A DNA stretch of 64,000 bases, from the NCBI GenBank assembly GCA_015063125.1, contig SUTB01000002.1, positions 28,720 through 92,719 on the forward strand, written 5' to 3'. Both the position numbers and the translations under genes were made by a program. Shown in pieces: positions 11,648 to 47,477 of this stretch. Numbering within the stretch: position 1 is the stretch's first letter; each line of letters starts with the position of its first letter. This DNA comes from Thermoplasmata archaeon (GTDB lineage Archaea; Thermoplasmatota; Thermoplasmata; Methanomassiliicoccales; Methanomethylophilaceae). The notes beneath the pieces were generated by a model. The model was not told the DNA's origin. It saw only the letters and a program-made list of their open reading frames with translations, and searched no databases.

Positions 11648-12478
11648 ATGCACGTGAAAAGGGAGAGCAGGATCCTCATCGCTGTCATCGGCATACTCGC
11701 CATTATACTCGGAGCAGGCTATATCGGCATCTTCACGGTATCCGGACTGGACTCCCCTTTGAGCGTCGTCACTTCGTCGAGCATGCAGCACGACAACGAC
11801 CTTTCTCAGATCGGCGTCATCGACACCGGAGATGTGATGATCGTCCAAGCGCCTTCCAAGGTCGATATACAGAGCTATGTGGAGGGCACGATCTCCGGGT
11901 TGAAGATGTTCGGCGATTACGGACACGTGATCGTCTACAACCGCGGCGACGATGTGAATCCCGTGATCCACCGCGCCATAATATGGCTGGACTACAACTC
12001 TAAGGACGGCACATGGAGCGCGCCTTCGCTGGCCGACTACAAGGGATCCTGGTCCTGCACCGGTTCGACCAGTTATCTGTCCCTGTCCGGAACCCTGACC
12101 TTCCAAGGGATAACCCAATCCAACAAGACGGTCAGCATCAACCTCGGTACCCTCGGGAAGCAGAGCGGATACCTGACCATGGGTGACAACCCTGTCTCCA
12201 ACTCGTATTTCGACCAGGCCGTCGGGATCATATCACACCCCATAGGGAACGACGACATCAGATCCGTGCCGATAATGGAGCTTCCCTGGATGGGCGTGCT
12301 GAAGGTCTACATGACGGAGAACAAGAGGGCATACCTCAGCCATGTTCCCAACTCCAGCATCTGCCTCATAATGCTGTTCGCCACTGTCATCGGACTGATC
12401 TACAGCTACGACATCTTCTACCTCAGGAAGAAGCTCGCAAAGGATCAGAAGGAACTCGACGAGTACCGCTATTATTGA
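11648..12478 (+). CDS. Archaeal-type signal peptidase I (S26B-like)
   Basis: This membrane serine peptidase would remove Sec signal peptides outside the cell membrane. An N-terminal membrane anchor covers residues about 9-30. The catalytic Ser-Met pair is at about residues 45-46 (TSSSMQHDND), followed by the GDVMIV box. The His108 of NPVIHRAI is the presumed archaeal/eukaryotic-type base, and the GYLTMGDNPVSN box holds Asp180. A second membrane span lies near residues 240-262, with a charged cytoplasmic tail. The stop codon lies two bases before the left ORB repeat of the origin region. Confidence 0.85.
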   Translation: MHVKRESRILIAVIGILAIILGAGYIGIFTVSGLDSPLSVVTSSSMQHDNDLSQIGVIDTGDVMIVQAPSKVDIQSYVEGTISGLKMFGDYGHVIVYNRGDDVNPVIHRAIIWLDYNSKDGTWSAPSLADYKGSWSCTGSTSYLSLSGTLTFQGITQSNKTVSINLGTLGKQSGYLTMGDNPVSNSYFDQAVGIISHPIGNDDIRSVPIMELPWMGVLKVYMTENKRAYLSHVPNSSICLIMLFATVIGLIYSYDIFYLRKKLAKDQKELDEYRYY

Positions 12479-12480
12479 CA

Positions 12481-12522
12481 CCCCCACCCCACCGTTTCCA
12501 CTGGAACCGAAAAAGAGGGTAT
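12481..12522 (-). repeat. Origin recognition box (ORB), left copy
   Basis: Read on the minus strand this 42-bp element contains ggttccagtggaaacggtgg followed by a G-rich string. The TTCCAGTGGAAAC core plus G string is the archaeal ORB pattern bound by Orc1/Cdc6. It is the inverted partner of 14131-14172, differing at one position over 42 bases. The two copies enclose orc1/cdc6. Confidence 0.8.
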
Positions 12523-12534
12523 TGGTGATTTTCC

Positions 12535-13773
12535 TCAGATCAGAGTGGTCTGTTTCGGAGGCTTATAATTGACGAGATCCTTGAAGAGCTCATCCTCTTT
12601 CAGGAGGTCGACGATATCCCTTGAAAGATTCAATTCTATCTCCTTGGTGCGTCCGTTGCGGCCGTAAGATTTGACCCTCGCATAGATGAGACCGAGCATG
12701 TCCAGTTCGGAGATCATATCCGCAACCCTTCTTTGTGTCAAAGAGGAATAACCGATGATCTCGCAGATGTCTTTGTAAGAGCTGTACACCTCTCCGGTGA
12801 TCATGGTCTTCTGACCTTTTTCGGTTATCTTGATGATGCTCATGAGGACGATCTTCAACTGATCGTTCAATGCCTTCTTCACGATTTCAGTGACTGCATC
12901 CATCTCGAATTTGTTCTTGGCGGATTTGACATGAGCCTCAGTGATGACGGGATCCCCGTTGCGTTCCGCTATTTCCGCTGAGAGCTTGAGAAGACTGATG
13001 GCCCTTCTAGCGTCTCCTCCGTCCTGAGCGGTGATTGCCGCACAGTAAGGGATGACCCCGACATCGAGGATGCCTTCATCGAAAGCGTTGTTCGCCCTCT
13101 CGAGAAGGATATCGTTAATTTCCTCCACACTGTAGGGAGGGAAGATTATCTTCTCTTCGCAGAGCCTGCTCTTTATCTTGGAACTGAGGAGATCCGTGAA
13201 CTTGGGATTGTTCGATATCCCTATCACCGAGATCTTGGATTCCTTCAGAGAATTGTTGATAGAAGTCAGATAATAGAAGACATCGTCACCGTTCTTGTTT
13301 ATCGATCTATCGATCTCATCCAAGACCACGATGAAGATCTTCTTCTGTTCTTCCATGTAGTTCTTCAGTTCTTCGATGATCTTATCGACCGACCATCCGG
13401 TGTAAGGGACTTTCTTGGAAGAATCAGTTATGATCGTGTTCGCGATGTTGTAGAGGATTCCGTAAGGGGTATCCGTTATCTCGCAGTTGATGTAGATGAG
13501 AGATACATTTTCTTCTGCAGGATCGGCCTTTTTCAGTTCCTTTCCTAAGAAATTCACTGTTACAGTTTTTCCTGTTCCTGTCTGACCTATGATCAGAATG
13601 TTCGAAGGTTTGATCTTGTTCAGTGAAGGGGCTATGATCTCTACCAGTTGATTCAGGAGATCGTCCCTATGAGGAAGGGATTCGGGTATGTAGTCCGTTT
13701 GGAGGTACTTCTTGTATCTGACCAGATCCTTTCTCTTGTTGAGGTATTGATTGAAGATATTTGGTTCAGTCAT
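12535..13773 (-). CDS. Orc1/Cdc6 replication initiator
   Basis: This AAA+ initiator of 412 residues binds ORB elements and loads MCM at archaeal origins. Walker A is GQTGTGKT (residues 63-70), Walker B is VVLDEID around residues 149-155, and the sensor-1 region is SVIGISNN. The C-terminal third (about 310-395) is a winged helix with SSLTQRRVADMISELDMLGL. A TATA-like ttatatc element lies upstream near 13841. The gene sits between two ORB repeats, the classical arrangement for an origin-linked cdc6 gene. Confidence 0.95.
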   Translation of the reverse strand: MTEPNIFNQYLNKRKDLVRYKKYLQTDYIPESLPHRDDLLNQLVEIIAPSLNKIKPSNILIIGQTGTGKTVTVNFLGKELKKADPAEENVSLIYINCEITDTPYGILYNIANTIITDSSKKVPYTGWSVDKIIEELKNYMEEQKKIFIVVLDEIDRSINKNGDDVFYYLTSINNSLKESKISVIGISNNPKFTDLLSSKIKSRLCEEKIIFPPYSVEEINDILLERANNAFDEGILDVGVIPYCAAITAQDGGDARRAISLLKLSAEIAERNGDPVITEAHVKSAKNKFEMDAVTEIVKKALNDQLKIVLMSIIKITEKGQKTMITGEVYSSYKDICEIIGYSSLTQRRVADMISELDMLGLIYARVKSYGRNGRTKEIELNLSRDIVDLLKEDELFKDLVNYKPPKQTTLI

Positions 13774-14029
13774 GTCAGATTCTCCAGTGGCCTATACCAC
13801 TTTCCTGTTTTCTTTCCTCTGTAAGAAGTATCGTAGATATAAGGATTTTCAAAAAGTGCCTTTTCAGACTTAGTTCTCTTTTTCAAGAACAGAGATTCTG
13901 CAACTGAAAACTGCTATAAAATGGATGTTTTACCGATTATCAATCTTAGATTCTTAAACTTACGATATTCATCCAATCACAAGCATTTATATCATCATCA
14001 TCGATAACGAATCTCCAGAGGTAACTCTT
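13774..14029. other. oriC: Candidate replication origin, AT-rich intergenic region
   Basis: About 256 bases between orc1/cdc6 and a tiny plus-strand gene are clearly A+T-rich and hold no protein gene, so they could serve as the unwinding element. A partial ORB-like ctccagtgg lies at about 13785-13793 next to the orc1 start and could mediate autoregulation. Full ORB repeats lie on both outer sides, at 12481-12522 and 14131-14172. Confidence 0.65.
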
Positions 14030-14119
14030 ATGAAAGGTTGGATCACAATCGGACTCTGCGTCGCAGGGATCATCGCATTCATCGGTGTCCTGTACGTTCT
14101 CAACATGATTTTCTCCTGA
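14030..14119 (+). CDS. 29-residue hydrophobic peptide in the origin region
   Basis: The frame ATG 14030 to TGA 14119 encodes one membrane span with a single charged residue near the start (MKGWITIGLCVAGIIAFIGV, then LYVLNMIFS). It has a GAGGT seven bases before the ATG and a TATA-like catttatatcat about 45 bases upstream. It is followed by a small palindrome, gggtatataccc, at 14125-14136. Translation signals argue that it is real; the function is unknown. Confidence 0.5.
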   Translation: MKGWITIGLCVAGIIAFIGVLYVLNMIFS

Positions 14120-14130
14120 AAAAAGGGTAT

Positions 14131-14172
14131 ATACCCTCTTTTCCGGTTCCAGTGGAAACGGTGGGGTGGGGG
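14131..14172 (+). repeat. Origin recognition box (ORB), right copy
   Basis: This 42-bp element contains ggttccagtggaaacggtgg followed by ggtggggg, the archaeal ORB core plus G string, pointing rightward. It is the inverted counterpart of 12481-12522 with one mismatch (ctcttttcc here against ctctttttc there). Confidence 0.8.
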
Positions 14173-14238
14173 TCTACCATAGTTACTGTCGGAGTAACCA
14201 TTTTAACCGAGGTTCTGTAATGATATCGCCGATACTCT

Positions 14239-17155: not shown

Positions 17156-17197
17156 CTTTATTCACTATTTTATACCGAATCACTTATGGGAGTCACG

Positions 17198-17791
17198 ATG
17201 CCCAGCATAGTCTACCGCTACGGATCGAGATACTACATCAACATGACCAACAGGTGCCCCTGCAGGTGCACCTTCTGCGTCAGGGACGAGACCGACCGTC
17301 TCGGGGATGCGGACTCGCTGTGGCTGGACAGGGAGCCCACGGTGCAGGAGCTTGAGGACAAGCTATCATCGCTGGATCTGGAAGGGGTCCCGGAGATAGT
17401 GTTCTGCGGCTACGGGGAACCCACGGAGAGGTTCGACGATCTCAAGGTGATTGCCGGGTTCATCAAGGATACCCTGCACAAGAGGGTCAGACTGGACACC
17501 AACGGTCTGGGCAACCTCATCAACGGCAGGGACATCGTTCCCGAGATGGTGGGATTGGTGGATTCCGTTTCCATCTCTCTGAACGCATGCAACGCGGAGG
17601 AGTACCTGGAGGTCACCCGCAGCAGGTTCGGGATTGATTCCTACCAAGCGGTTTTGGACTTCATCAAGGAGTGCAGGGAGTCCATCGACGGCGTGACAGT
17701 CTCCATCGTAGGGGGATCCATCAGTCAGGCCTCGGAGGAGGAATGCGGAAGGATCGCCGACAGGATGAGGGTGGCTTTCAGGGTCAGATGA
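17198..17791 (+). CDS. Radical SAM protein, TatD-linked type
   Basis: A short radical SAM enzyme of about 197 residues. The iron-sulfur motif C-x3-C-x2-C is CPCRCTFC in NMTNRCPCRCTFCVRD, followed by the GYGEPTERFDDL box that binds S-adenosylmethionine. Its size and sequence resemble the family often found beside TatD nucleases; no tatD lies here. Substrate unknown. The ATG at 17198 is preceded by GGAG and is preferred over the upstream ATG at 17186. A TATA-like attttatacc lies at about 17166. Confidence 0.8.
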   Translation: MPSIVYRYGSRYYINMTNRCPCRCTFCVRDETDRLGDADSLWLDREPTVQELEDKLSSLDLEGVPEIVFCGYGEPTERFDDLKVIAGFIKDTLHKRVRLDTNGLGNLINGRDIVPEMVGLVDSVSISLNACNAEEYLEVTRSRFGIDSYQAVLDFIKECRESIDGVTVSIVGGSISQASEEECGRIADRMRVAFRVR

Positions 17792-17876
17792 TTAATCCCT
17801 GTTAAGAAGAGTCAGTATCAGGTAACGCAACATTTCGGGCATCGATTTATATTCTCTACCGGATAGTAATCCGTCC

Positions 17877-18770
17877 ATGACCGAAAATGTCATGACAAAC
17901 GGTTCGAAGATAAGCTTTGACAAACACTTCAAGAATATGGTGCACAGCCCCAATCTCCTTGCTTTCACCATTAAGCAGATGATACCCGAATTCAGGGACA
18001 AGGACCTGGAATCGATCAAGGAACATCTGGACATCAACCCGGATTCTCACAGGGTGATCAGCGAGGATACCGAGATACCGCTGTTCAACGGTGAGAAGAT
18101 AATCCTGGATTCCCTGTTCAGGATAAGGACGGATGACAACAGGGAGATAGCTCTGGAGATCAACCTGGAGGGTCAGTTCAAGCGCAACACGGGTTACCCC
18201 ATCGGGGCCAGGGCGATGCATTATGCGTGCACCCTGCTGTCCACGGAGAAGGGCAGGGTGTTCTCGGACAGTCATTTCGACAGGATGGTCAAGGTCTACA
18301 GTATATGGTTCATGATCAAGCCCTATCTGTCGGAGCAGAACACCATCAGGCGTTTCGGCATGAGGGAGCTTTTGTCCGACGGTAAAACGATCCCCGCTCC
18401 GGAATATGATTATCTGGAGATCATCATGGTCTACATGGGGGAGCACTCCCAACTTGCTGACGAGGATCTGATCAATGTGTTCAACCTCGTCTTCAGGGAA
18501 GATCTCGATCCGCAGGAACGTTTGAAACGTTTACAGGAAGATTATAATATCCTTCCAGACAGTTGTTTAATCGATAGTATGGAAGAAACGGTGAAGAGTT
18601 ACGCTGAGGAACTCAGAGAGCAGGCCATCGAGGACGCCCTGATCGAGCAGGCGGCACAGCATATCCTTGCCTTGATGGAGAAAAAAATGAGCTTCGAAGA
18701 AGCTTTCCTCCTTCTGAAGGTGGATCCTAACTTGGAATGCGATGTTCGTTACTTAGTCGACAAAGCTTAG
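17877..18770 (+). CDS. PD-(D/E)XK nuclease family transposase (Rpn-like)
   Basis: A 297-residue protein of the Rpn/PDDEXK_2 group, recombination-promoting nucleases often annotated as transposases. The nuclease core includes ILDSLFRIRTDDNREIALEI, with the acidic D and the E-x-N pair, followed by a helix with Q and R residues (GQFKRNTGYPIGARAMHY). The C-terminal helices (SMEETVKSYAEELREQAIED) are typical of the family. A TATA-like atttatattct upstream suggests a leaderless start. The stop is TAG, rare in this window, with a TGA four codons later. A broken partial copy of the 3' end follows at 18897. Confidence 0.82.
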   Translation: MTENVMTNGSKISFDKHFKNMVHSPNLLAFTIKQMIPEFRDKDLESIKEHLDINPDSHRVISEDTEIPLFNGEKIILDSLFRIRTDDNREIALEINLEGQFKRNTGYPIGARAMHYACTLLSTEKGRVFSDSHFDRMVKVYSIWFMIKPYLSEQNTIRRFGMRELLSDGKTIPAPEYDYLEIIMVYMGEHSQLADEDLINVFNLVFREDLDPQERLKRLQEDYNILPDSCLIDSMEETVKSYAEELREQAIEDALIEQAAQHILALMEKKMSFEEAFLLLKVDPNLECDVRYLVDKA

Positions 18771-21913: not shown

Positions 21914-24748
21914 TTATGACATGCTCTGATCCTTGCCTGCAAGAAGGTATTGGTATAATCTGTCCTCAACAGGAACTCTAAGTTTCATAGGTATGTTGAC
22001 TACACTCTTGTTAGAATCGCGCATAATCATTTCTTTCATATCTTCGATAATGGGGTCGATCTTTCCAAGATAATAGAACGTCCTATCCTCATTGTCACTT
22101 TTCATAACGAAAAGATACCTTTGTAATTCTGGGTTGATTAGTTTTTTGACTTCGTTGCTGTTCAATTTACGACCATTTTTAGTCATCCAACTAATGGTTC
22201 CTCTGTTGAGGAAACGATCCTCATAGTTGATGCTAGAGCTGATGTTGTCGCTTTTATGGTAGGTAACAAAGATGGGGCAAGTTTGGCCCTGAATGATGTA
22301 CCCACCGATGTTCTGTGGGTTGATACTTTTTGGCCAATTGAGCAGTTTACATACATCCTCTCTAGAATATTTCTCATTCAAAACAAATCTGTCTGAATTG
22401 TTGTTAGAATACTTGTCCAGGTAGATGAGCCTGCTGCAGTCAATGAGATCCATAATGTATTTTTTGAATTCCTCATCTTTGAGATTCTCTCTTGCAGATG
22501 TTGTTAATGAAATCGAATCGTCTTTTGATTCTATGATACCGTTTTCTTTTCCATAGAAGAGACCGGAGATGACAGAAACACATGATTCATAATCAGAATC
22601 CGAAATGCTTGGGTAGTATGTTTTTAGATGCGTCTCAAAAGTTTCTTTCGAGACAGTTTTTTCATCATTCAATAATCTCATCATGATGTGTTCATGTGCT
22701 CTTTTCCCTGGAATTAGAATCTTTGAAAGATCGTTCAGCATTAAGGATTGAGTTTCAGATAATTTGTGCTTTGTTAGTTTTAGGACAGTTCTAAAATTAT
22801 AGAGGCTATCGTATTTACTGACGATTATTTCAGGGCCTATCTTCTCATGAGATTTCAAATAACAAAGATCTGGGGGGAAGCCCAACATGTTCGTTAGTGT
22901 GATGTATTGAGACTTTATCAGTTGAGATATGTTCTTAGCTTTGTTAATTGACTCGTAGATCCTATCTTCTGAAATTTTATCGAATTGAACTATCGATGAA
23001 CCTATGATTGGGTCCGTCATAAGACGTTTCCTGAGGTTATCCTTGTTCATAGACGAATCTCCGGACAGAGCCATCATAATCATGTAATTGTTGTCGTAGT
23101 TTCCAATGAAATCTAGGACTGTAAGATATGGCTTTACTTCATTGTCCAGGGTTGTTTTTCTTAGGCCACGCCCTAGTTGTTGGATAAAGATCGTAACTGA
23201 TTGTGTTGGTCTAAGCATGATAATCTGGTTTACAGATCTGATATCTATTCCTTCGTTGAATATGTCGATGGTGATCAGATAATCTAAAGCATCATCGCCA
23301 TCTTGTTCTAATCTGTTAATTGCAATTTCACGTTCTTTCTCTGATGTTTCATCACATATGAATTGAGTTTTCCAACCTTTTTGGTTGAATAATTCAGAAA
23401 GGGCACGTCCTTCATTCTTATTTTTACAGAAAATCAATCCCTTGACCTTATTTCCAGCGAATCCATAGTATTCAGCTTGAGTCATTATATGGTCTACTCT
23501 TTTTTCTGAAGTTAGCAAATTAAAATCTGAATATTCATCAAGTGATTTATTGTCTACAATAATATCTGATATCCCGTAGTAATGGAAAGGACAGAGAAGA
23601 TCCGCACTCAGTGCATCTTGGAGACGAATCTCGTAAGCGATTATGTGATCAAATAATTCGAAGATATCCATCTTGTCCATTCTTTCCGGAGTAGCTGTCA
23701 TCCCTAGCATGAATTTCGGTTTGAAGTACTCAATGATCTTTTTGTAATGCGGAGAGATTGAATGATGTGCTTCGTCACATACTATGTAATCAAAGTGATC
23801 TGGGGGGAAACGACTGAGAGTAGACTCTCTTGTCATTGATTGTGTAGTTGAAAAGATGAAATCAGCTTCGAATTCTTTCTGAGTTCTAGTTATCTTTCCC
23901 ATTTTGAATTCATTTTTGAAAATATTTTTGAAAGTTGCCATTGCAGAATCTAGTATTTGCTCTCTGTGGACCAAAAATAGAACTTTCTTGGCTCCAAATC
24001 TTTTGATATCGAACGCAGAGAGGTATGTTTTCCCGGTTCCTGTTGCGGAAACAATCAACGCTTTGTTCGATCCCGATTGTCTTACATTGCTTAGTTGTTT
24101 TAACGCTTCTTTTTGCATGGCGTTAGGTTCAATTGTCTTGATTATTGAAGATTCGATGGTTTCGATTCTTCTTGGAGTATCAAAATCATATCTCGTTTCG
24201 TAATCTTCGATCCACTTTGCATCGAGTACATCAGAATCAGACCACATTTTTTCGAATTCGTTTTCAGTCTGTTCTATAATTGGATTATTCCCTTCTATAT
24301 TGCTGAGGTTAATATTCCATTCTTTGTTGTAGAATAGAGCAGTATTTGTGATATTGGAACTACCTATTATCAAAGAGGTTCCTTCGTCCGAGTAGAAGAG
24401 ATAGCCTTTGGTATGGAATGCTGCTTTTGTATAGACACGGCATTCTACATTCTCTAATTCAAGTAATTTTTTTAGAGCCTTAGGTTCACTGAATTGTAGA
24501 TAATCTGTTGTGATGACCTTTCCTTTTACATTCGGATGTTCCTTTAGAAAATGGCAAAATGGTGTGATTCCGCTATCGGTTATGAACGCAACAGAGAATT
24601 TGAATGATGAGCATTTCCTTAGTTCATTACTGATAGCAGAATAGACTGATCTGTTGGGGCTTTCATTGTATACTAATTGGGGGCATGGTGTATTCCCATA
24701 TTGAGTAAGGATGTTTGTTTCAACATCCATTGTATATTGTTCAGTCAT
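21914..24748 (-). CDS. PLD-like nuclease / SF2 helicase / DUF3427 protein
   Basis: A protein of about 944 residues with three parts. The N-terminal phospholipase-D-like nuclease part has the H-x-K motif in [20 protein letters not shown] and then GSSNIT. The SF2 helicase core has Walker [10 protein letters not shown], box II DEAHH, box [11 protein letters not shown] and motif [13 protein letters not shown]-terminal DUF3427-like region includes [23 protein letters not shown] 24748 lies in an 8-base overlap with the NUDIX gene, so the two are co-translated. Such pairs occur in bacterial defence or repair neighbourhoods; the function is not shown. Confidence 0.88.
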
Positions 24749-25160
24749 AGTAGTCCTCAATAACTTCTACAACGGCTTTATCCGCTTCAGTCCAATCAAG
24801 AGTTCTCAATTCCTCTACGGTACACCATTTGAATGATTTGTGCTCTGTTAAAGTAAATGAGATGTTATCAGAGAATATCAAGAACGAATGCATCAGGAGA
24901 TGGAAATCGGGATAATCATATTCAGTGTCGCATAGGTGTTGGATTGTTTGTTTGGAGATGTCTGTTTTGAGTTCTTCCGATAGCTCTCTTATGATAGTAT
25001 CCTTCGGAGTTTCATTATTTTCGACCTTTCCTCCCGGAAATTCCCATTTATTTGAGAGGTAGGGATATTTTACATGTCCTTTTTGGACGCAAAGGATCGT
25101 GTTGTTGCAAACGATGACTCCTGCGGATACTTCTACCATTGAGTGATAATGTGCTTTCAT
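24741..25160 (-). CDS. NUDIX hydrolase (MutT-like)
   Basis: A NUDIX protein of about 140 residues. The Nudix box is GGKVENNETPKDTIIRELSEEL (G-x5-E-x7-R-E-x2-E-E), preceded by KWEFP as in MutT-type 8-oxo-dGTP hydrolases. It overlaps the helicase gene by 8 bases. The start is uncertain: a TATA-like tttaaata near 25196 supports a leaderless ATG at 25160; ATG 25139 (MVEVSAGVIV) and TTG 25181 are alternatives. Its partner suggests a joint role in sanitising or sensing nucleotides during defence or repair. Confidence 0.85.
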   Translation of the reverse strand: MKAHYHSMVEVSAGVIVCNNTILCVQKGHVKYPYLSNKWEFPGGKVENNETPKDTIIRELSEELKTDISKQTIQHLCDTEYDYPDFHLLMHSFLIFSDNISFTLTEHKSFKWCTVEELRTLDWTEADKAVVEVIEDYYD

Positions 25161-25280
25161 TGATTTTAGGAATGTGATCAAGGTGAAGTTTACTATTTAA
25201 AGAACAATGAAGACACCGGGTCGTCTTCACATTACCAGAATTGGTGGACACCCCCTGGAGAGCCATGATGGTGAGGACCA

Positions 25281-25894
25281 ATGGGAGGATCCCCTACGAG
25301 TTACATGGAGACGGTCCTCGTCGATGATATGTTCTCGGACGCTCCGAGCTGGGTCCTGGAAGCGATCGTGGTGAACGTGTTCCTCAAGACCGATAAGGAA
25401 GAGAGGATAATAGACGATTATATGTGCGGGACGGAGACGCAAGGAATCATAGGATGTCTTTCATGGACGGATAGGGCATATTCACCGGAACGGAAAGAGG
25501 AAACGTAAGGGACCTGGGCGAATCGAAGAGGCGTTTGATGGACATGGGGCTCGTCACCGAAGAGGACCTGGAGTATTCCAGATTCACATGGTACAAAAGC
25601 GATCCCGATGGCGAAAGGATGCTCCTGGGATGCTGCTATTAGCCGTTCAGGCTGATAGCGATACACCCCTTGTTCGATAGCAGGGATGTGAGCAGAAGGC
25701 TCCTGGATTTCGCGATGTACCATGAGATCCTGCATCTGAGGCAGAATCGGATCAGAAAGAGCACAGGACATGACGAGCTGTTCTATCGTTGGGAGCACGA
25801 ATATCCTTATTGGTGGCAGGTGCACTACGAGTACAACCGTTTAACCGGAAGTAACTTGCTCTCTGACAAGGATGTCGTATTGTGCGGAGATTGA
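25281..25894 (+). pseudogene. Broken SprT-like zinc metallopeptidase gene with in-frame TAG
   Basis: Fragments in two frames align with the SprT-like layout. The first (from 25281) gives SYMETVLVDDMFSDAPSWVL. After a shift near 25460-25490 the second frame runs from about RGNVRDLGESKRRLMDMGLV through RLIAIHPLFDSRDVSRRLLD to the zinc motif H-E-x-x-H in FAMYHEILHLRQNR, then WEHEYPYWWQVHYEY. The second frame holds one TAG at 25640-25642, between GCCY and PFRLIAIH, which pyrrolysine decoding could bridge. The frameshift makes the locus look inactive. A related N-terminal segment lies at 32337-32660. Confidence 0.6.
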
Positions 25895-26039
25895 AAAGAA
25901 GTGAGATGGGGGACGGAGAGATCCTTTGATGGATAGATCCTAAGTGGATTCTGCATAAGCGGATGGTCACGGGTGTGTATTGCCGGTCTTCAGTGTTTAG
26001 ATTTTTATCTCATGAATCTCGGGAGTATAAGGTGGACAT

Positions 26040-32885: not shown

Positions 32886-33782
32886 TTGATTGTGATTTTT
32901 GTTTCTTTGAAGGATAGGTTGAACCCGCCCCGTCCTGTCAATAAATTTGTCAGAGACAAAACCACACCAGAATTCAAAAACCAGGTTTTGAATATAATCC
33001 ATAACCATTATCACACACGCAGTTATGATCCGATGTCATTCAGCATCGATTCTTATTCGCATGATATTCTTCATACATATGTTACTTTCAAATCGTTAGA
33101 ACCCTTGGATCCTGATAAAGAATACAATGATAATGCCGTCTTTTATGCTCTTAAACAATTTGAAGACTACGAGTTTTTTGAGTTCTTAGATTGCATGATT
33201 TACACTCTTTATTCAGATGTACAAATCAGATTTCTTCCTTCATTTAACGAATTCGTAACCGATCTTAATGAATCCATGAAATTGCATGGTATGGATTATG
33301 TAATAATCGAAGGTCATTTGCATTATCGTATAGAAGAAACGATCTTTGAATCGGCTGTTGCTCCTTGTTTACATATTCTCCAGCAGTACAAATTATATGA
33401 TGCCGATAGATATCTATTAGATTCCTTTCAATCTTTCAAAAAAGGTAATAACAATGAGGCAGTCGAGTATGCTGTCAAATCTTTGGAAAATGTCGTTCAG
33501 CATATCCTGGATGTCAATAAGATTGAATATGACCCCAAAAATATGAAACTGCATTATAGGATACCGTTGATTCTGCAAAAAACCGATTCAAAACTATTGT
33601 CTGATAAGATGTCTGATCAGTATATTCAGATTGAAAAAATATTCCAGGTTGCTATGTCCACAAGGAATGAAGTTGTCCATGGTTCTAAAACTTTTGAAGC
33701 GGGCGACCCTTTAGTTGAACACACTATCAATATTGTGGCATCGGATATTCTTTTTCTTGTAAAGATTTCTTTAAAGGATTGA
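32886..33782 (+). CDS. Abi-like protein with C-terminal HEPN-type motif
   Basis: A 298-residue soluble protein. The C-terminal half has a helical pattern with an R-x4-H motif (STRNEVVHGSK), the hallmark of HEPN ribonuclease domains, and the segment NNEAVEYAVKSLENVVQHIL resembles AbiJ/STM4504-type abortive infection proteins. The start codon is TTG at 32886, with a TATA-like tttatttatatat about 30 bases upstream, so a leaderless transcript is likely; GTG 32892 is an alternative. It lies in the defence-rich region. RNase activity is an inference from one motif. Confidence 0.6.
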   Translation: MIVIFVSLKDRLNPPRPVNKFVRDKTTPEFKNQVLNIIHNHYHTRSYDPMSFSIDSYSHDILHTYVTFKSLEPLDPDKEYNDNAVFYALKQFEDYEFFEFLDCMIYTLYSDVQIRFLPSFNEFVTDLNESMKLHGMDYVIIEGHLHYRIEETIFESAVAPCLHILQQYKLYDADRYLLDSFQSFKKGNNNEAVEYAVKSLENVVQHILDVNKIEYDPKNMKLHYRIPLILQKTDSKLLSDKMSDQYIQIEKIFQVAMSTRNEVVHGSKTFEAGDPLVEHTINIVASDILFLVKISLKD

Positions 33783-34643
33783 TCATTTGCCGATTGCCTT
33801 ATTCTTAAGATAGTCTTGATAAGTAATTGGTTTTCTCACCCTTCCCTTCACCGGGAAGTAATGTTTGTCATCGATAACTAAAAGATCCTTGTCTTCTACG
33901 AACATACGATATTCTTCTTGATAATCCCAATTTGTAGTCTTTCTGCATATCGATATGTATGTTGCAGCTTTCACACGGTTGCACAGTTCTTCAACTTGTT
34001 TTTTCTTAACCTTTCCAACGAAAGTTTCTATCAGAACCTCGAACATATCCTCAATTTCGTCACTGAAATCGTCTTTTTCGTCCCCATATATTGCTTTGTA
34101 ATATGGTAGTCCCTTTACTTTGATTGGTATGCATATCCCTTCTTCATTACCACACCATTCCCACATTTTTTCGATGTATGGGTTTGAACTCATACAGCTT
34201 ATATGCCTTTTCATCAATATAGAATCGACATCACCCATAATTTTTGACGGGTCATATGCGGGTTTACCATCTTCCTCGAGCATCTCATTCATCATGTTCA
34301 AAACATCCTCGTTTTCCTCCGTTATAATGTCCTTGATACTCCATAAGGTGAGTTCTTTTTCATCTTCTTTTTTCCCTTTCCTATAATTTTCAATGGTCCC
34401 ACAATACAGTAATCCATTTTCCAACAAATCATCAGCGTGCTCCTTAGATGTGTATTTGTATAGTACCTTTGGTTTAGTCATAAATCCTTCTTTCTCTGCA
34501 ATTTGTCTAATTCTACAGTTCCTGTCCAATCTCTTGAATACCTTTCTAAGATTGCTCATGTCTACTTCTTCTTTACTACATTTCAAAATAACTTTCTGTA
34601 TTGTGTATAGATTATCAAAGGGATCAACATCTTTTTTGAACAT
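33783..34643 (-). CDS. DUF2971-like protein
   Basis: A protein of about 286 residues. The motif KPKVLYKYTSKEHADDLLEN followed by GLLYCGTIENYRKG, and later HISCMSSNPYIEKMWEWCGN, match the DUF2971 layout, a family of unknown function often found in defence islands and mobile elements. ATG 34643 with GAGGG upstream is preferred to GTG 34649, which overlaps the stop of the winged-helix gene. The two are co-transcribed. Confidence 0.68.
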   Translation of the reverse strand: MFKKDVDPFDNLYTIQKVILKCSKEEVDMSNLRKVFKRLDRNCRIRQIAEKEGFMTKPKVLYKYTSKEHADDLLENGLLYCGTIENYRKGKKEDEKELTLWSIKDIITEENEDVLNMMNEMLEEDGKPAYDPSKIMGDVDSILMKRHISCMSSNPYIEKMWEWCGNEEGICIPIKVKGLPYYKAIYGDEKDDFSDEIEDMFEVLIETFVGKVKKKQVEELCNRVKAATYISICRKTTNWDYQEEYRMFVEDKDLLVIDDKHYFPVKGRVRKPITYQDYLKNKAIGK

Positions 34644-34645
34644 GA

Positions 34646-35320
34646 TCACACATCCCTCTTTACTGTTAATCTGTACATGAATCTCTGATTTTCATTCATG
34701 TAATACTTAGCTGGATGTCCTTCTTCTTTTGATATGTAATCCATCTTTGTCAGTTTGTTGACTGTGCGATGCAGAGTCTTAGTAAAATCGGGCTTCCCCT
34801 CGTATTCGTCACGCTTCACGGTTTTCTTTGCTTTACGTTTGCGGTTGATCCAGATTTCATCGATATCATTTACTGTACAGCGTTGTTCAGACATCAGCTC
34901 CTGCACAACCTCCAATTCAGTATCTTTCAGTACACTATAGTCGATGTAGCGTTGTCCTGTTGATCTAAGTTCTCCGTCCACCATGGCTGTGACTCTGTTA
35001 CCCTCTAAGTATCCGAACGGGGTCAATTCCATGGCATGGTAGGGTGCGGCGAAGGTCACATCGATATGGAGGTCGTATTCCTTGTTCCATCCATCTATGA
35101 GCCCTACTATGCTCGTGGATTCACGGACTTCTTCATACTCCGTGCTCTTTCCGCACTTTCTCCGTACACGCTCTACATCGACTTTCTTATCGTCGATTCT
35201 AGAGTAGGTTAAAATGATAATTTCATTTTCAGAGCACTTTTCAATCAATTCCTCCTCTTTATCGGTCAAAACAAAACCATCTTCGAGGAAAATAATCGAT
35301 TTCTCAGTTTTTTCGCTCAT
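34646..35320 (-). CDS. Winged-helix protein with Rossmann-like sensor domain
   Basis: A protein of about 224 residues. The N-terminal domain (IIFLEDGFVLTDKEEELIEK, then HIDVTFAAPYHAMELTPFGY) has an alternating strand/helix pattern reminiscent of CARF-like or DUF6293 sensor domains. The C-terminal third is a winged helix (FTKTLHRTVNKLTKMDYISK, then EGHPAKYYMNENQ). A TATA-like cataaatag near 35350 supports a leaderless ATG at 35320. It probably controls itself and the DUF2971-like gene. The sensor similarity is by pattern only. Confidence 0.55.
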   Translation of the reverse strand: MSEKTEKSIIFLEDGFVLTDKEEELIEKCSENEIIILTYSRIDDKKVDVERVRRKCGKSTEYEEVRESTSIVGLIDGWNKEYDLHIDVTFAAPYHAMELTPFGYLEGNRVTAMVDGELRSTGQRYIDYSVLKDTELEVVQELMSEQRCTVNDIDEIWINRKRKAKKTVKRDEYEGKPDFTKTLHRTVNKLTKMDYISKEEGHPAKYYMNENQRFMYRLTVKRDV

Positions 35321-35484
35321 CAAATTCTCAAAAACGTGAGACTACTATTTATGAATTAGTAAGGTGTGTCCCATCTTGGGAAGAACCCAAAAGGGACAAA
35401 CACCCTACAAGAAGCAAATGATTCCAACGGATTCAAAGTAGATAAAGTCTGTCCTTCCGGTTCTTTCAAGGATAAGTGAACAAT

Positions 35485-37065
35485 ATGTCATCCAAGAAAA
35501 AGGAAATAGAGAGGACAGATGTAGAGAAAGCAATATGGGACATCGCACACGACCTGCGCGGATCCGTGGACGGATGGGACTTCAAGAACTTCGTGCTCAT
35601 CGCGATGTTCTACAGACAGATCTCGGAAGCCATGGAACGCTACTTCAACGAGCACGAGTGGGAGTCCGGTGACAAGGACTTCGACTACTCCAAGCTCGCT
35701 GACGAGCTCGCGAAGGTTGCCAGAGATGAGGCTATCAAGGCCAAGGGCTATTTCATCGCCCCGAGTCAGCTGTTCTGCAACATCGCAAAGAACGTAATGA
35801 CCCCGGAGGTACAGAAGGACCTCAACAAGACCCTTGAGGACATCTTCAAGAGCATCGTCGAGTCATCGGTAGGCACCAAGAGCGAGGAGAACTTCAGGGG
35901 GCTCTTCGACGACTTCGACGTCAACAGCAACAAGCTCGGACCGACCCTCGAGCAGAGGAACCTCAAGCTCGCCAAGTTGATCAGGGGCATCGCCGACATG
36001 CATCTCGCGGACCACTCCGATGCGATGAACGACTCGTTCGGTGACGCCTACCAGTTCCTGCTGACCATGTATGCATCTGACGCAGGAAAGTCCGGCGGTG
36101 AGTTCTTCACTCCCGCCGACGCCTCTGAACTCGTCGTAAGGCTCGCCACCATGGGTAGGACCTCGGTCAACAAGATCTACGATCCCTGCTGTGGTTCCGG
36201 TTCGCTGCTCCTCAAGGCTGCACAGATCCTCGGACCCGAGAACGTCAAGAAGTTCTTCGGTCAGGAGATCAACTTCACAAACTACAACCTGTGCAGGATC
36301 AACATGTTTGTCCACGATGTCGGATACGAGAGGTTCAGCATCAAGAACGACGACACCCTCAAGCACAACCAGCACGCAGGCAACATGCCCTTTGACGTGA
36401 TAGTGTCCAATCCGCCGTACTCCATCCACTGGGATGGGGAGGACGACCCGATACTGATCAATGACGAGAGGTACGCTCCTGCAGGAGTGCTCGCTCCCAA
36501 GTCCAAGGCCGACATGGCATTCCTGATGCACATGCTCTACTGCTTGGACAACTCAGGAACGGCTGCGGTCGTCTGCTTCCCGGGAATCTTCTACCGCAAA
36601 GGTGCGGAGCAGAAGATCAGGAAGTACATGGTCGACAACAATTTCGTCGATGCGGTCATCCAGCTGCCTCCGAACCTGTTCTTCGGAACAAGCATCGCGA
36701 CCTGCATCCTCATACTCAAGAAGAGCAGGACCGTCTCGGACATCGCGTTCATCGACGCCTCCGAGGAGTTCGTCAAGCAGACCAGCGACAACGTCCTGTC
36801 CAAGGAGAACATCGACAACATCGTCAAGCTCTATGCCGACAAGCAGAATATCGATTACAAGGCGGCAATCGTCCCCAAGCAGAAAGTGGCGGAGAAGGAG
36901 TACAACCTCTCCGTGTCCTCCTACGTCGAGAAGGAGGACACCCGTCCCCCCATCGACATCAAGCAGGTCAACGCAGACATCGCAAGGCTTGTGGCCGAAG
37001 GTAACGAGCTTCGCGTGAAGGTAGACGAGATCGTAGCAGCTATCGAGGCGAAGAGAGATGACTGA
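35485..37065 (+). CDS. hsdM: Type I restriction-modification DNA methyltransferase (M subunit)
   Basis: An N6-adenine methyltransferase of about 526 residues. An N-terminal HsdM helical domain (DVEKAIWDIAHDLRGSVDGW) is followed by GGEFFTPADASELVVRLAT, the SAM-binding motif YDPCCGSGSLLLKAA and the catalytic N-P-P-Y in VSNPPYSIHW. The frame also offers GTG at 35476; the start is uncertain. It overlaps hsdS by 8 bases. Codon use is GC-richer than in the neighbouring unknown genes, which suggests a different source. Confidence 0.95.
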   Translation: MSSKKKEIERTDVEKAIWDIAHDLRGSVDGWDFKNFVLIAMFYRQISEAMERYFNEHEWESGDKDFDYSKLADELAKVARDEAIKAKGYFIAPSQLFCNIAKNVMTPEVQKDLNKTLEDIFKSIVESSVGTKSEENFRGLFDDFDVNSNKLGPTLEQRNLKLAKLIRGIADMHLADHSDAMNDSFGDAYQFLLTMYASDAGKSGGEFFTPADASELVVRLATMGRTSVNKIYDPCCGSGSLLLKAAQILGPENVKKFFGQEINFTNYNLCRINMFVHDVGYERFSIKNDDTLKHNQHAGNMPFDVIVSNPPYSIHWDGEDDPILINDERYAPAGVLAPKSKADMAFLMHMLYCLDNSGTAAVVCFPGIFYRKGAEQKIRKYMVDNNFVDAVIQLPPNLFFGTSIATCILILKKSRTVSDIAFIDASEEFVKQTSDNVLSKENIDNIVKLYADKQNIDYKAAIVPKQKVAEKEYNLSVSSYVEKEDTRPPIDIKQVNADIARLVAEGNELRVKVDEIVAAIEAKRDD

Positions 37066-44656: not shown

Positions 44657-45095
44657 CTCTTATCTCTTGTTAATGGAATCATTCTTCGTGAAACCAATCT
44701 AACCCGACTAAAACCGCTTACACAATTAATGTTGCTCCATCCAATTATTTCTCTTCCGATTTTCAATAATGACGGAAGTAACTGAAGAAATGGGTATCAG
44801 AATTTCGTTCACAACTTGTCAATTCTGATGATTATTCAAGGATCAAAAATGTCCGATTTAGACGAGCGCTAAAACCATGTCCCCGGATTCGCGAAGTATC
44901 GGAAGAAGGAGTCTGACCGAAGGTACCGCTAACGACTATGCGGATATCAACAGACACGAATCATTTCTTTTTGGATTCTTTCATTGAACCCCCGAACCGA
45001 AGAGTTTGTGAATGATTGCAGTAGGACCTCTTCACAAAAAGTTAGGTATAAGATGCTCTTAAACAGAAACAAAGGTTATTTTCTAGGCCCCATCG
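44657..45095. other. Intergenic stretch, no gene seen
   Basis: About 440 bases with stops in all frames and no recognised RNA or repeat. It separates the broken cargo genes from the two-gene membrane module. Confidence 0.45.
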
Positions 45096-45593
45096 TTATT
45101 TGTTTTCGTAACAAATAACTTGGAATAATCTGTTCATGTTTTTTACGAATAGAAATAGTGAAACTAAAAGCAAATAGGTCATGATGAATATGCCTGCTGT
45201 CGATTCAGCATTATGTTCAGATATGGGAATAAATGGTCCATATAGGAGGATTATTGCTAACAATAGGGTATCGATGTATAGATTAAAGTAAAGACCGCTT
45301 ACAAACATAGGATACATATTTTCTTGATGATCAGGGGTTCCTCTCTTCATAATTAGAAAAACGCCATGGTCCGAGAGAGAGGCTACCAATAATGTCGCTA
45401 TGAATCCCATTATTATTGATGATACAATTGGGACTGAATTTAGCATCATATTCAAAGTTGAGATGGTGCACTCAAGTTGGTATGTAGTTGCCGTAAATAG
45501 TATTGTTAACACCAAAGGTAGTATGAATAAAACAAGCTTATCTGGCCATTTTAGGCGAGATAGGAAATCATGTGAAGCTTTGTGTTGTTTCAT
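45096..45593 (-). CDS. Four-helix membrane protein of a two-gene module
   Basis: A 165-residue protein with four predicted membrane spans: about residues 20-37 (LVLFILPLVLTILFTATT), 53-72 (SVPIVSSIIMGFIATLLVAS), 97-119 and 134-153. A short basic N-terminus and a short tail face the cytoplasm. Its start overlaps the stop of the upstream gene by 4 bases (ATGA), so both products are made together. Small multi-span proteins paired with a soluble partner are a recurring effector design in abortive-infection systems. No family recognised. Confidence 0.6.
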   Translation of the reverse strand: MKQHKASHDFLSRLKWPDKLVLFILPLVLTILFTATTYQLECTISTLNMMLNSVPIVSSIIMGFIATLLVASLSDHGVFLIMKRGTPDHQENMYPMFVSGLYFNLYIDTLLLAIILLYGPFIPISEHNAESTAGIFIMTYLLLVSLFLFVKNMNRLFQVICYENK

Positions 45594-46456
45594 TGAATCG
45601 ATTTAAGGAATGATTTGAGATTGTCTTCTAGTTTTTGTAAAATGTCGTCTGAAACGACCATACCATTTTCGTCAAGATCTACAGATATTTTTTCATTGAT
45701 TGTATTCATGATAGAATCTAAGACTAAATCTTTCTCTTCATCAGAGTGCAGAGATATACGCATTTTCTTACATTTATTCTTGTTTTTCTTGATGGAATCG
45801 AACCAATCTCCTACCTTAGGGATAAGCATATCTTTTCCACTACCAATTCTGATTGAACATAAATGTTCTTCTTCATTTCCGTAAATATTGGCAAACTCAT
45901 CTTGGAATAGATAACGATAATCGCACTGAATATTGATGTTAGATATTCTTTTGGATTTTAGGATGATATTAATAACATCTTTGCCAGCCAGTTCCTTTAC
46001 AGACAATGTATAGTTTTCCCCTAAAGCATTGATATGAAATTCTAAAAAACTAGAAATCATGACGAGTCCAACACCATCTCTATTGCTTTCGATTGATGCG
46101 ACAAGTCTGTGAGGATCATACATCAAACACATATGGGTTATCATCTCTTCTCCTTCATTCAGCCTTTTGTTGCTATCACGAATGTGTCCTTGATTATCCA
46201 TAAGTTTAGTAACATATCCATATTTTGCTGAACTTATTGCAATCCAATAGAATTTATCATGTTTTGAAATTGAACGTATATTAATTGCCTTTTCAACATC
46301 TTCTCTATCCTGATTTCTAGCTTCTTCACTTTTTGTTTGTTTTAATCTATCTAAGGTTTCGTAAACAATATCCATGTTTGAGCAGGGAATTCCATCTTTT
46401 ACTAGCTCAAATTCGCAATATCTGATAGTTCTCTTTTTGGTTTTTCCCTTAGCCAT
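45590..46456 (-). CDS. Soluble partner of the membrane module, unknown
   Basis: A 288-residue protein with no membrane span. It begins AKGKTKKRTIRYCEFELVKD, an N-terminal strand pattern followed by MDIVYETLDRLKQTKSEEAR, and ends in a charged helix that runs to the stop (DDILQKLEDNLKSFLKSIQ). The middle is mixed alpha/beta (KFYWIAISSAKYGYVTKLMD). GAGGT six bases before ATG 46456 is a good ribosome-binding site. The architecture suggests a cytosolic sensor feeding the membrane protein. The layout resembles DUF6731-like proteins to my eye, but that could not be verified. Confidence 0.55.
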   Translation of the reverse strand: MAKGKTKKRTIRYCEFELVKDGIPCSNMDIVYETLDRLKQTKSEEARNQDREDVEKAINIRSISKHDKFYWIAISSAKYGYVTKLMDNQGHIRDSNKRLNEGEEMITHMCLMYDPHRLVASIESNRDGVGLVMISSFLEFHINALGENYTLSVKELAGKDVINIILKSKRISNINIQCDYRYLFQDEFANIYGNEEEHLCSIRIGSGKDMLIPKVGDWFDSIKKNKNKCKKMRISLHSDEEKDLVLDSIMNTINEKISVDLDENGMVVSDDILQKLEDNLKSFLKSIQ

Positions 46457-46997
46457 ATCAAAACCTCTATGGTATTACAATATCATTTATCTAGAGATCT
46501 TTTGTGAATATAAACAGGATGTATATAGGTCGGCCGGCGGCGCTGGTCCATGTCACTTATTGCCATCATTCTACGTTTACTTTGGTCCCTACAGGTGTGC
46601 ACATACTCTTATGTGTTCTTCGAGCGACAAAAAGTGTTTTGCAAATCATCTGTAAGTTGTTTCAAAGAGTTTGTCGGAGTTCCCTAAAATGTGGAGTGTC
46701 AAGTAATCTCTTTTGTAGCGGATAATGGTAGAGCATATGAAATCCATGATAATGATAGACCGAGATCATTCTGAGAATGGCTATCCAGCAGTATGGTGAT
46801 TTGCCACTCAGCTCGCCCGTCTATCATCAACGATCAGCACGAAAAAACGATCATCACCGTGGCATCCCTTGTTACCGTCAGCAACAATAAAAAGCCTGGC
46901 GCTCAGGAACCGTATTCCCTGACCATCTCTTTAATCCTGCGCAGAGCCTCCCGAATCATACTTTATATCCGATGCCATACAGAGACCTGTTGGTACC
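46457..46997. other. Intergenic stretch, no gene seen
   Basis: About 540 bases without a credible gene. It includes a short GC patch, gtcggccggcggcg, near 46528 and a TATA-like actttatatcc at about 46961-46971, 27-37 bases before the ATG at 46998. It marks the change back to GC-richer conserved genes. Confidence 0.45.
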
Positions 46998-47477
46998 ATG
47001 TTCGGAAAGAAGACCGAGAAGAAGCTGCGCATCCTGTTCCTCGACAGGAAGAACGATTACACCTCACAGCTGGCGGAGTACTTCGCCAACCAGTTCTACG
47101 AGAACAAGTACGAGGTCTACAGCGCCGGTTTCGAGCATGACATCATCGACTGCGACATGATCTCCGTGATGTATCAGAACGGGGAGGACATGAGGCGCCA
47201 GGTCGCCAAGGACCTGAAGAACACCGAGCTCCTTCCCAAGGACGATTTCTATGATTTCGTGGTGTACCTGGAGCAGCCGATCTTCGACGAATTCTCAAAG
47301 AAATCCCCCTGGCAGGGCAAGCAGATCCTCGCCCCCATGATGAACAGGGAGGACTTCACCGCCACCGACGACGCTGAACTGTTCGATGACTACGTCAAGG
47401 TCATCGATCAGGTCAGGGAATGGGTGAAGGAGAACCTGGCCGACCCCGATAAGCTGTCTGCGCTGGTCACGGCATGA
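46998..47477 (+). CDS. LMW phosphatase/ArsC-fold protein lacking the catalytic Cys
   Basis: A 159-residue protein whose start aligns with low-molecular-weight phosphatases and arsenate reductases: RILFLDRKNDYTSQLAEYFA stands where the family has VLFVCxGNxCRSQMAEGF, and YEVYSAG follows. The nucleophile Cys corresponds to Asp16 and the loop Arg to Thr22, so phosphatase chemistry is unlikely. It overlaps tsr3 by 4 bases (ATGA). It may act as a binding or scaffold protein. The fold call is from pattern. Confidence 0.65.
   Translation: MFGKKTEKKLRILFLDRKNDYTSQLAEYFANQFYENKYEVYSAGFEHDIIDCDMISVMYQNGEDMRRQVAKDLKNTELLPKDDFYDFVVYLEQPIFDEFSKKSPWQGKQILAPMMNREDFTATDDAELFDDYVKVIDQVREWVKENLADPDKLSALVTA

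Follow-up and report, generated by a model that had tools for sequence, protein, structure and literature searches.

To judge from its sequence, the locus around orc1/cdc6.1 in the window (the whole stretch of 64,000 nucleotides analysed here) is very probably the site where copying of the chromosome starts in an archaeon that, judged by its similarity to the Methanomassiliicoccales of PMC4153887, would belong to this order. It can with considerable confidence be read as an origin of the oriC1 type, in which Orc1/Cdc6.1 on two inverted ORBs would direct MCM, two forks would leave in opposite directions and opening would likely occur in the AT-rich region at 13801-14000. A chromosomal origin had been proposed in the initial annotation, and this proposal is supported by the identity of the ORBs, their uniqueness in the genome, their pairing around cdc6.1 throughout the family and the GC-skew minima; the gene content of the locus and the concerted evolution of the two ORBs can be read from the same sequences. 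The components are arranged as follows.

11648-12478, + strand: convergent neighbour of cdc6.1, conserved and weakly signal-peptidase-like
12480-12508, - strand: ORB_D (downstream ORB), directly beyond the cdc6.1 stop codon; canonical ORB with dyad TTCCAGTGGAAA and G-string GGTGGGGTGGGGGT, pointing outward (left)
12509-12522, - strand: inner flank of ORB_D, ATACCCTCTTTTTC, common to both repeat arms save for one base in the ORB_D arm and poorly conserved between species
12535-13773, - strand: orc1/cdc6.1 initiator gene (412 aa), with Walker A (GQTGTGKT), Walker B (LDEID) and a C-terminal winged helix
13801-14000, no strand: AT-rich stretch, candidate site of unwinding and of the divergent promoters
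14030-14119, + strand: microprotein gene, divergent from cdc6.1; its 29-residue product, MKGWITIGLCVAGIIAFIGVLYVLNMIFS, is a single-helix membrane protein
14115-14144, + strand: hairpin resembling a terminator, GAAAAAAGGGTATATACCCTCTTTTC, where the microprotein gene ends; overlaps the inner flank of ORB_U (-11.7 kcal/mol; z -3.5 versus shuffles)
14145-14173, + strand: ORB_U (upstream ORB), GGTTCCAGTGGAAACGGTGGGGTGGGGGT, canonical, with the G-string outward (right)

The inverted ORB pair and the elements it encloses

The ORBs form part of an inverted repeat of 43 nt (12480-12522 and 14131-14173), the arms of which lie in opposite orientation, are separated by 1608 nt and match at 42 of 43 positions (98% complementary, one difference). 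The runner-up inverted repeat in the 4-kb region reaches only 23 nt at 78%. The two copies of about 42 bp, differing at one base, that had been noticed earlier are therefore real, although they measure 43 bp. The ORB pattern recognized in them, a core followed by a G string, is also that of a canonical archaeal ORB. The core, TTCCAGTGGAAACGG-TGGGGT or GTTCCAGTGGAAACGG-TGGGGT, fits both the published archaeal consensus and the Methanomassiliicoccales consensus of Borrel et al. (2014; PMC4153887). Each ORB combines the dyad TTCCAnTGGAAA with a G-string, as in origins of the oriC1 type, and the two are inverted with their G-strings outward, as in haloarchaeal oriC1 (Halolamina loci; PMC3936714).

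Across the 8 contigs of the genome (1.65 Mb), the 16-nt core is present in two copies only. Beyond these two copies and their own palindromic read-outs, all matches genome-wide carry at least three mismatches, and those with three are not commoner than with a reversed control. The full ORB pattern is found once in forward and once in reverse orientation, with 0 control matches. A search of viral contigs gave no match. Copies of the repeat away from cdc6, which had been named as evidence against an origin, are absent from the genome.

The extent of the element has to be revised, however. The pairing of the repeat stands, but the functional unit would be the ORB of about 29 bp (dyad plus G-string) rather than the 42-bp repeat, and the remaining 14 bp or so of identity are specific to the source species and a few relatives. 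This additional identity may represent a recently homogenised tract or a shared transcript end; a poly-T stretch in the inner flank of ORB_D possibly marks the end of the cdc6.1 transcript. The inner flank was also considered as a conserved enhancer resembling the G-rich repeat of Haloarcula oriC1 and set aside as such: the flank ACCCnTTTTCC recurs in the source genus but carries low information family-wide, so that a transcript end or a homogenised tract seems the better reading.

The intact Orc1/Cdc6 gene reported between the repeats, a linked initiator gene as in other oriC1-type origins, is confirmed by Pfam (AAA, Cdc6_lid and Cdc6_C) and by NCBIfam TIGR02928, the latter above cutoff, and the closest solved structure is that of Sulfolobus Orc1-1 (PDB 2qby_A). 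A second, divergent orc1/cdc6 is located on another contig and could define another origin. The AT-rich intergenic region likewise holds up: positions 13801-14000 contain 69% AT, which places them in the top 0.6% of 200-bp stretches (window average 50%), and the family average at the equivalent region is similarly AT-rich. An AT-rich region between the ORBs is again a feature of oriC1-type origins. While the orc1/cdc6 gene of the initial annotation stands, a conserved small gene inside the bracket formed by the ORBs had been missed. This microprotein ORF comprises 29 codons and is preceded by GAGGT, resembling a ribosome site.

Cumulative G-C skew reaches its minimum in the window at 13,400. 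The related complete genome G008 (1.52 Mb; 20 samples of 20 kb) displays a clean V. Its low point falls within 20-76 kb, a range that includes the ORB pair (64 kb), and its maximum is near 0.84-0.91 Mb, about half a chromosome away. In G054, a genome of the same species sampled as 60 stretches of 10 kb, the lowest sample of all is the one next to the locus, but this signal is weak and not significant by permutation (best split 0.104, against a mean of 0.081 and a maximum of 0.111 in 30 permutations). By contrast, the weak minimum of G012, also obtained from sampled stretches, lies about 0.2 Mb off the locus. The skew inflection that the initial annotation demanded of an origin is hence clear in the window and in G008 and weak in G054, with G012 in disagreement.

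Two further features of the window are recorded here. GC content falls to about 36-43% at 22000-26000, 33000-36000 and 45000-47000, against 50-58% over much of the window, suggesting acquired DNA. At 17186-18770, a gene for a radical SAM protein near TIGR04038 (TatD-associated) and TIGR04100 is followed by a 297-aa ORF (17877-18770).

Layout and evolution of the locus in the family

The ORB pattern is matched in 75 of 102 family genomes, in most of them by one forward and one reverse copy; the controls give essentially no matches. Among the matches listed, the ORBs adjoin cdc6.1, sit in a matching origin fragment or lie at a contig end; a few are on split contigs, apparently from the same locus. 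Both ORBs bracket an orthologous orc1/cdc6.1 in 67 genomes, as one inverted pair with the G-strings outward. Most of the family thus retains this unusual layout. In these relatives, ORB_D follows the cdc6.1 stop by 5-429 bp (median 27), the ORB_U dyad precedes the start by 264-487 bp (median 319), and the bracket spans a median of 1,586 bp.

The other families of Methanomassiliicoccales (L201-L220) share the ORB sequence, an orthologous cdc6.1 and the same downstream neighbour, but differ in arrangement: at 16 of 20 loci two ORBs in the same direction, a tandem pair, precede cdc6.1 by about 54-75 and 125-234 bp. Same-direction upstream ORBs are also present within the family, at five loci from two genera (g10 and g13). 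A tree of Cdc6.1, obtained by a quick search on a thinned set, unites the bracket loci in one group (support 100) and shows only one change of state; a few loci at which just one ORB was detected had been assigned manually to the bracket type. The bracket layout thus appears to have arisen once within the family, the order's other families being tandem. The ORBs of M. luminyensis are described as downstream of orc1/cdc6.1 in the consulted part of Borrel et al.; the related families analysed here show otherwise.

The sequences of the paired ORBs suggest that the two copies of one genome evolve in concert. Of 67 pairs, 37 agree fully over 24 nt; the average difference is 1.96 of 29 positions, compared with 3.12 of 29 between an ORB and the same ORB of the nearest relative; over 1000 random pairings the difference never fell below 4.4. 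The 28-nt inner flank showed no general concerted effect in the family comparison. Identity between copies reaches further inward in a few genomes, including the source genome. At L063 (G011) and L088 (G013) it takes in some 20-30 nt of the inner flank, as a recent conversion tract would.

The conservation of ORB_D bears on whether both ORBs are needed. The origin could be real and yet require only the upstream ORB and the AT-rich region, with the downstream ORB as a passenger, and the 20 loci from the order's other families indeed contain no credible ORB downstream of cdc6.1. This is unlikely, given that ORB_D is as well conserved as ORB_U and evolves in concert with it, and that Sulfolobus (PMC12141716) and Haloarcula (PMC3936714) need both inverted ORBs.

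Homologues of the microprotein are encoded in the same place in about 70 genomes. They have 26-31 residues and follow the pattern MKGWLVIGACxLGIxAFIGxLxxIG, in which Cys10 is kept in 70 of 71. Substitutions at codon positions 3:1:2 number 3608:1463:807, and pN/pS is 0.23 in frame versus 1.15 and 1.45 when the two remaining forward frames are read, values that carry some bias since the ORFs were picked by resemblance to a reference peptide. Across the family the microprotein is, on this substitution pattern, under purifying selection. A profile search of 147 genomes confined it to this locus, apart from weak matches (E above 0.005) inside larger ORFs, and gave no convincing match outside the family; no Pfam or NCBIfam family scored above cutoff. 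The microprotein tracks the bracket lineage and was not found in family genomes with tandem ORBs. Because both may trace to one branch, this association is not independent evidence of a shared function, and the microprotein may be a merely linked gene.

Comparison with known origins

The closest precedent is "Ca. Methanomethylophilus alvus," for which the consulted part of Borrel et al. (2014; PMC4153887) lists ORBs on both sides of orc1/cdc6.1 and notes the extra GGGGGT carried by Methanomassiliicoccales ORBs. The source genome has the same ORB sequence with this extra GGGGGT, the same placement on both sides of the gene and a second orc1/cdc6 without ORBs, which parallels all three genomes compared in that paper. 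For M. alvus four ORBs are given, two per side, whereas the source genome has one per side. The microprotein, the concerted evolution and the switch from tandem to bracket receive no mention in the consulted part of that three-genome comparison.

In Haloarcula hispanica oriC1 (PMC3936714), too, the ORBs are inverted and carry extended G-strings on the outside, the region between them is AT-rich, and the origin is associated with cdc6. The Halolamina loci share the ORB polarity and the signal-peptidase-like neighbour, but their inverted pair lies upstream of cdc6 with a spacing of about 200 bp, while here it is about 1.6 kb apart and encloses cdc6. In Sulfolobus oriC1 (PMC12141716), inverted ORBs are again combined with an AT-rich candidate unwinding region and a homologous initiator (2qby_A being the best PDB match). 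Its ORB3-DUE-ORB2 unit measures 130 bp, has no gene between the ORBs and needs both of them. The close flanking of an unwinding region without an intervening gene, typical of the Sulfolobus and haloarchaeal layout and not obligatory for archaeal origins, is absent here: the ORBs are 1.6 kb apart with cdc6.1 and the microprotein gene inside, a variant that the consulted part of Borrel et al. also lists for M. alvus. The Sulfolobus model, with a short region between two Orc1s as the target of MCM, is consequently hard to reconcile with this spacing.

The enclosed initiator gene and the position of the ORBs at the 3' ends of both genes could also mean that the main role of the pair is autoregulation or titration: Orc1 bound to both ends would repress or insulate cdc6.1, and replication would begin elsewhere. 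In Haloarcula hispanica oriC2, a downstream ORB cluster titrates Cdc6E (PMC3936714). Such clusters contain many ORBs, however, and here there is one per side; the pattern finds no further ORB in the genome to serve as the real origin, and the skew minima fall at the bracket locus. Regulation in place of initiation is therefore very improbable, although the two roles could coexist.

The signal-peptidase-like neighbour is found at 71 of 85 family loci, at all 20 loci from the rest of the order and at 4 Halolamina loci, and its retention argues for an inherited oriC1 locus rather than a mobile element. Long near-perfect inverted repeats around a gene do resemble the terminal repeats of an element carrying cdc6, but this is ruled out, with hardly any residual doubt, by the single locus per genome, which keeps its position and its neighbours throughout the family. 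In addition, the core is that of an ORB, target-site duplications are not obvious in the outer flanks inspected, and repeat identity past the ORB is not conserved between species.

Proposed mechanism and significance

In the oriC1-type reading, Orc1/Cdc6.1 made from the gene inside the bracket would bind the two inverted ORBs, with its winged helix on the TTCCAnTGGAAA dyad and its AAA+ domain on the G-string. The bound protein would then direct MCM loading, giving rise to two forks leaving in opposite directions, and strand opening would most likely take place within the AT-rich 13801-14000. The ORBs lie at the 3' ends of two divergent genes, those for Cdc6.1 and the 29-residue microprotein, both probably transcribed from the AT-rich region. 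We infer Orc1 binding, the unwinding site, firing and the promoters from the arrangement of the locus.

The kind of origin is known, and a close precedent is published (M. alvus). As far as open-access papers show, the family-wide bracket variant, its single switch and the microprotein appear to be new; this literature yielded nothing relevant on an origin-linked small protein. A more speculative and rather doubtful proposal is that the family converted its origin a single time: a tandem pair upstream of the initiator gene would have become two half-origins, 1.6 kb from each other, with this gene and that of a new, conserved microprotein between them. The microprotein might act in origin control, for example as a membrane tether for the origin or the initiator, and the ORBs might load helicase separately or via a DNA loop.

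The Sulfolobus model holds that inverted ORBs about 100 bp apart set two MCM rings face to face. With paired, co-evolving ORBs placed 1.6 kb apart around the initiator gene, in comparison with the 130-bp Sulfolobus unit, bidirectional initiation would have to use looping or two separate loading sites. To our knowledge, no function has been described for the microprotein, a small conserved gene product of an essential region without a curated family. The single change from tandem to bracket provides a natural experiment on origin geometry.
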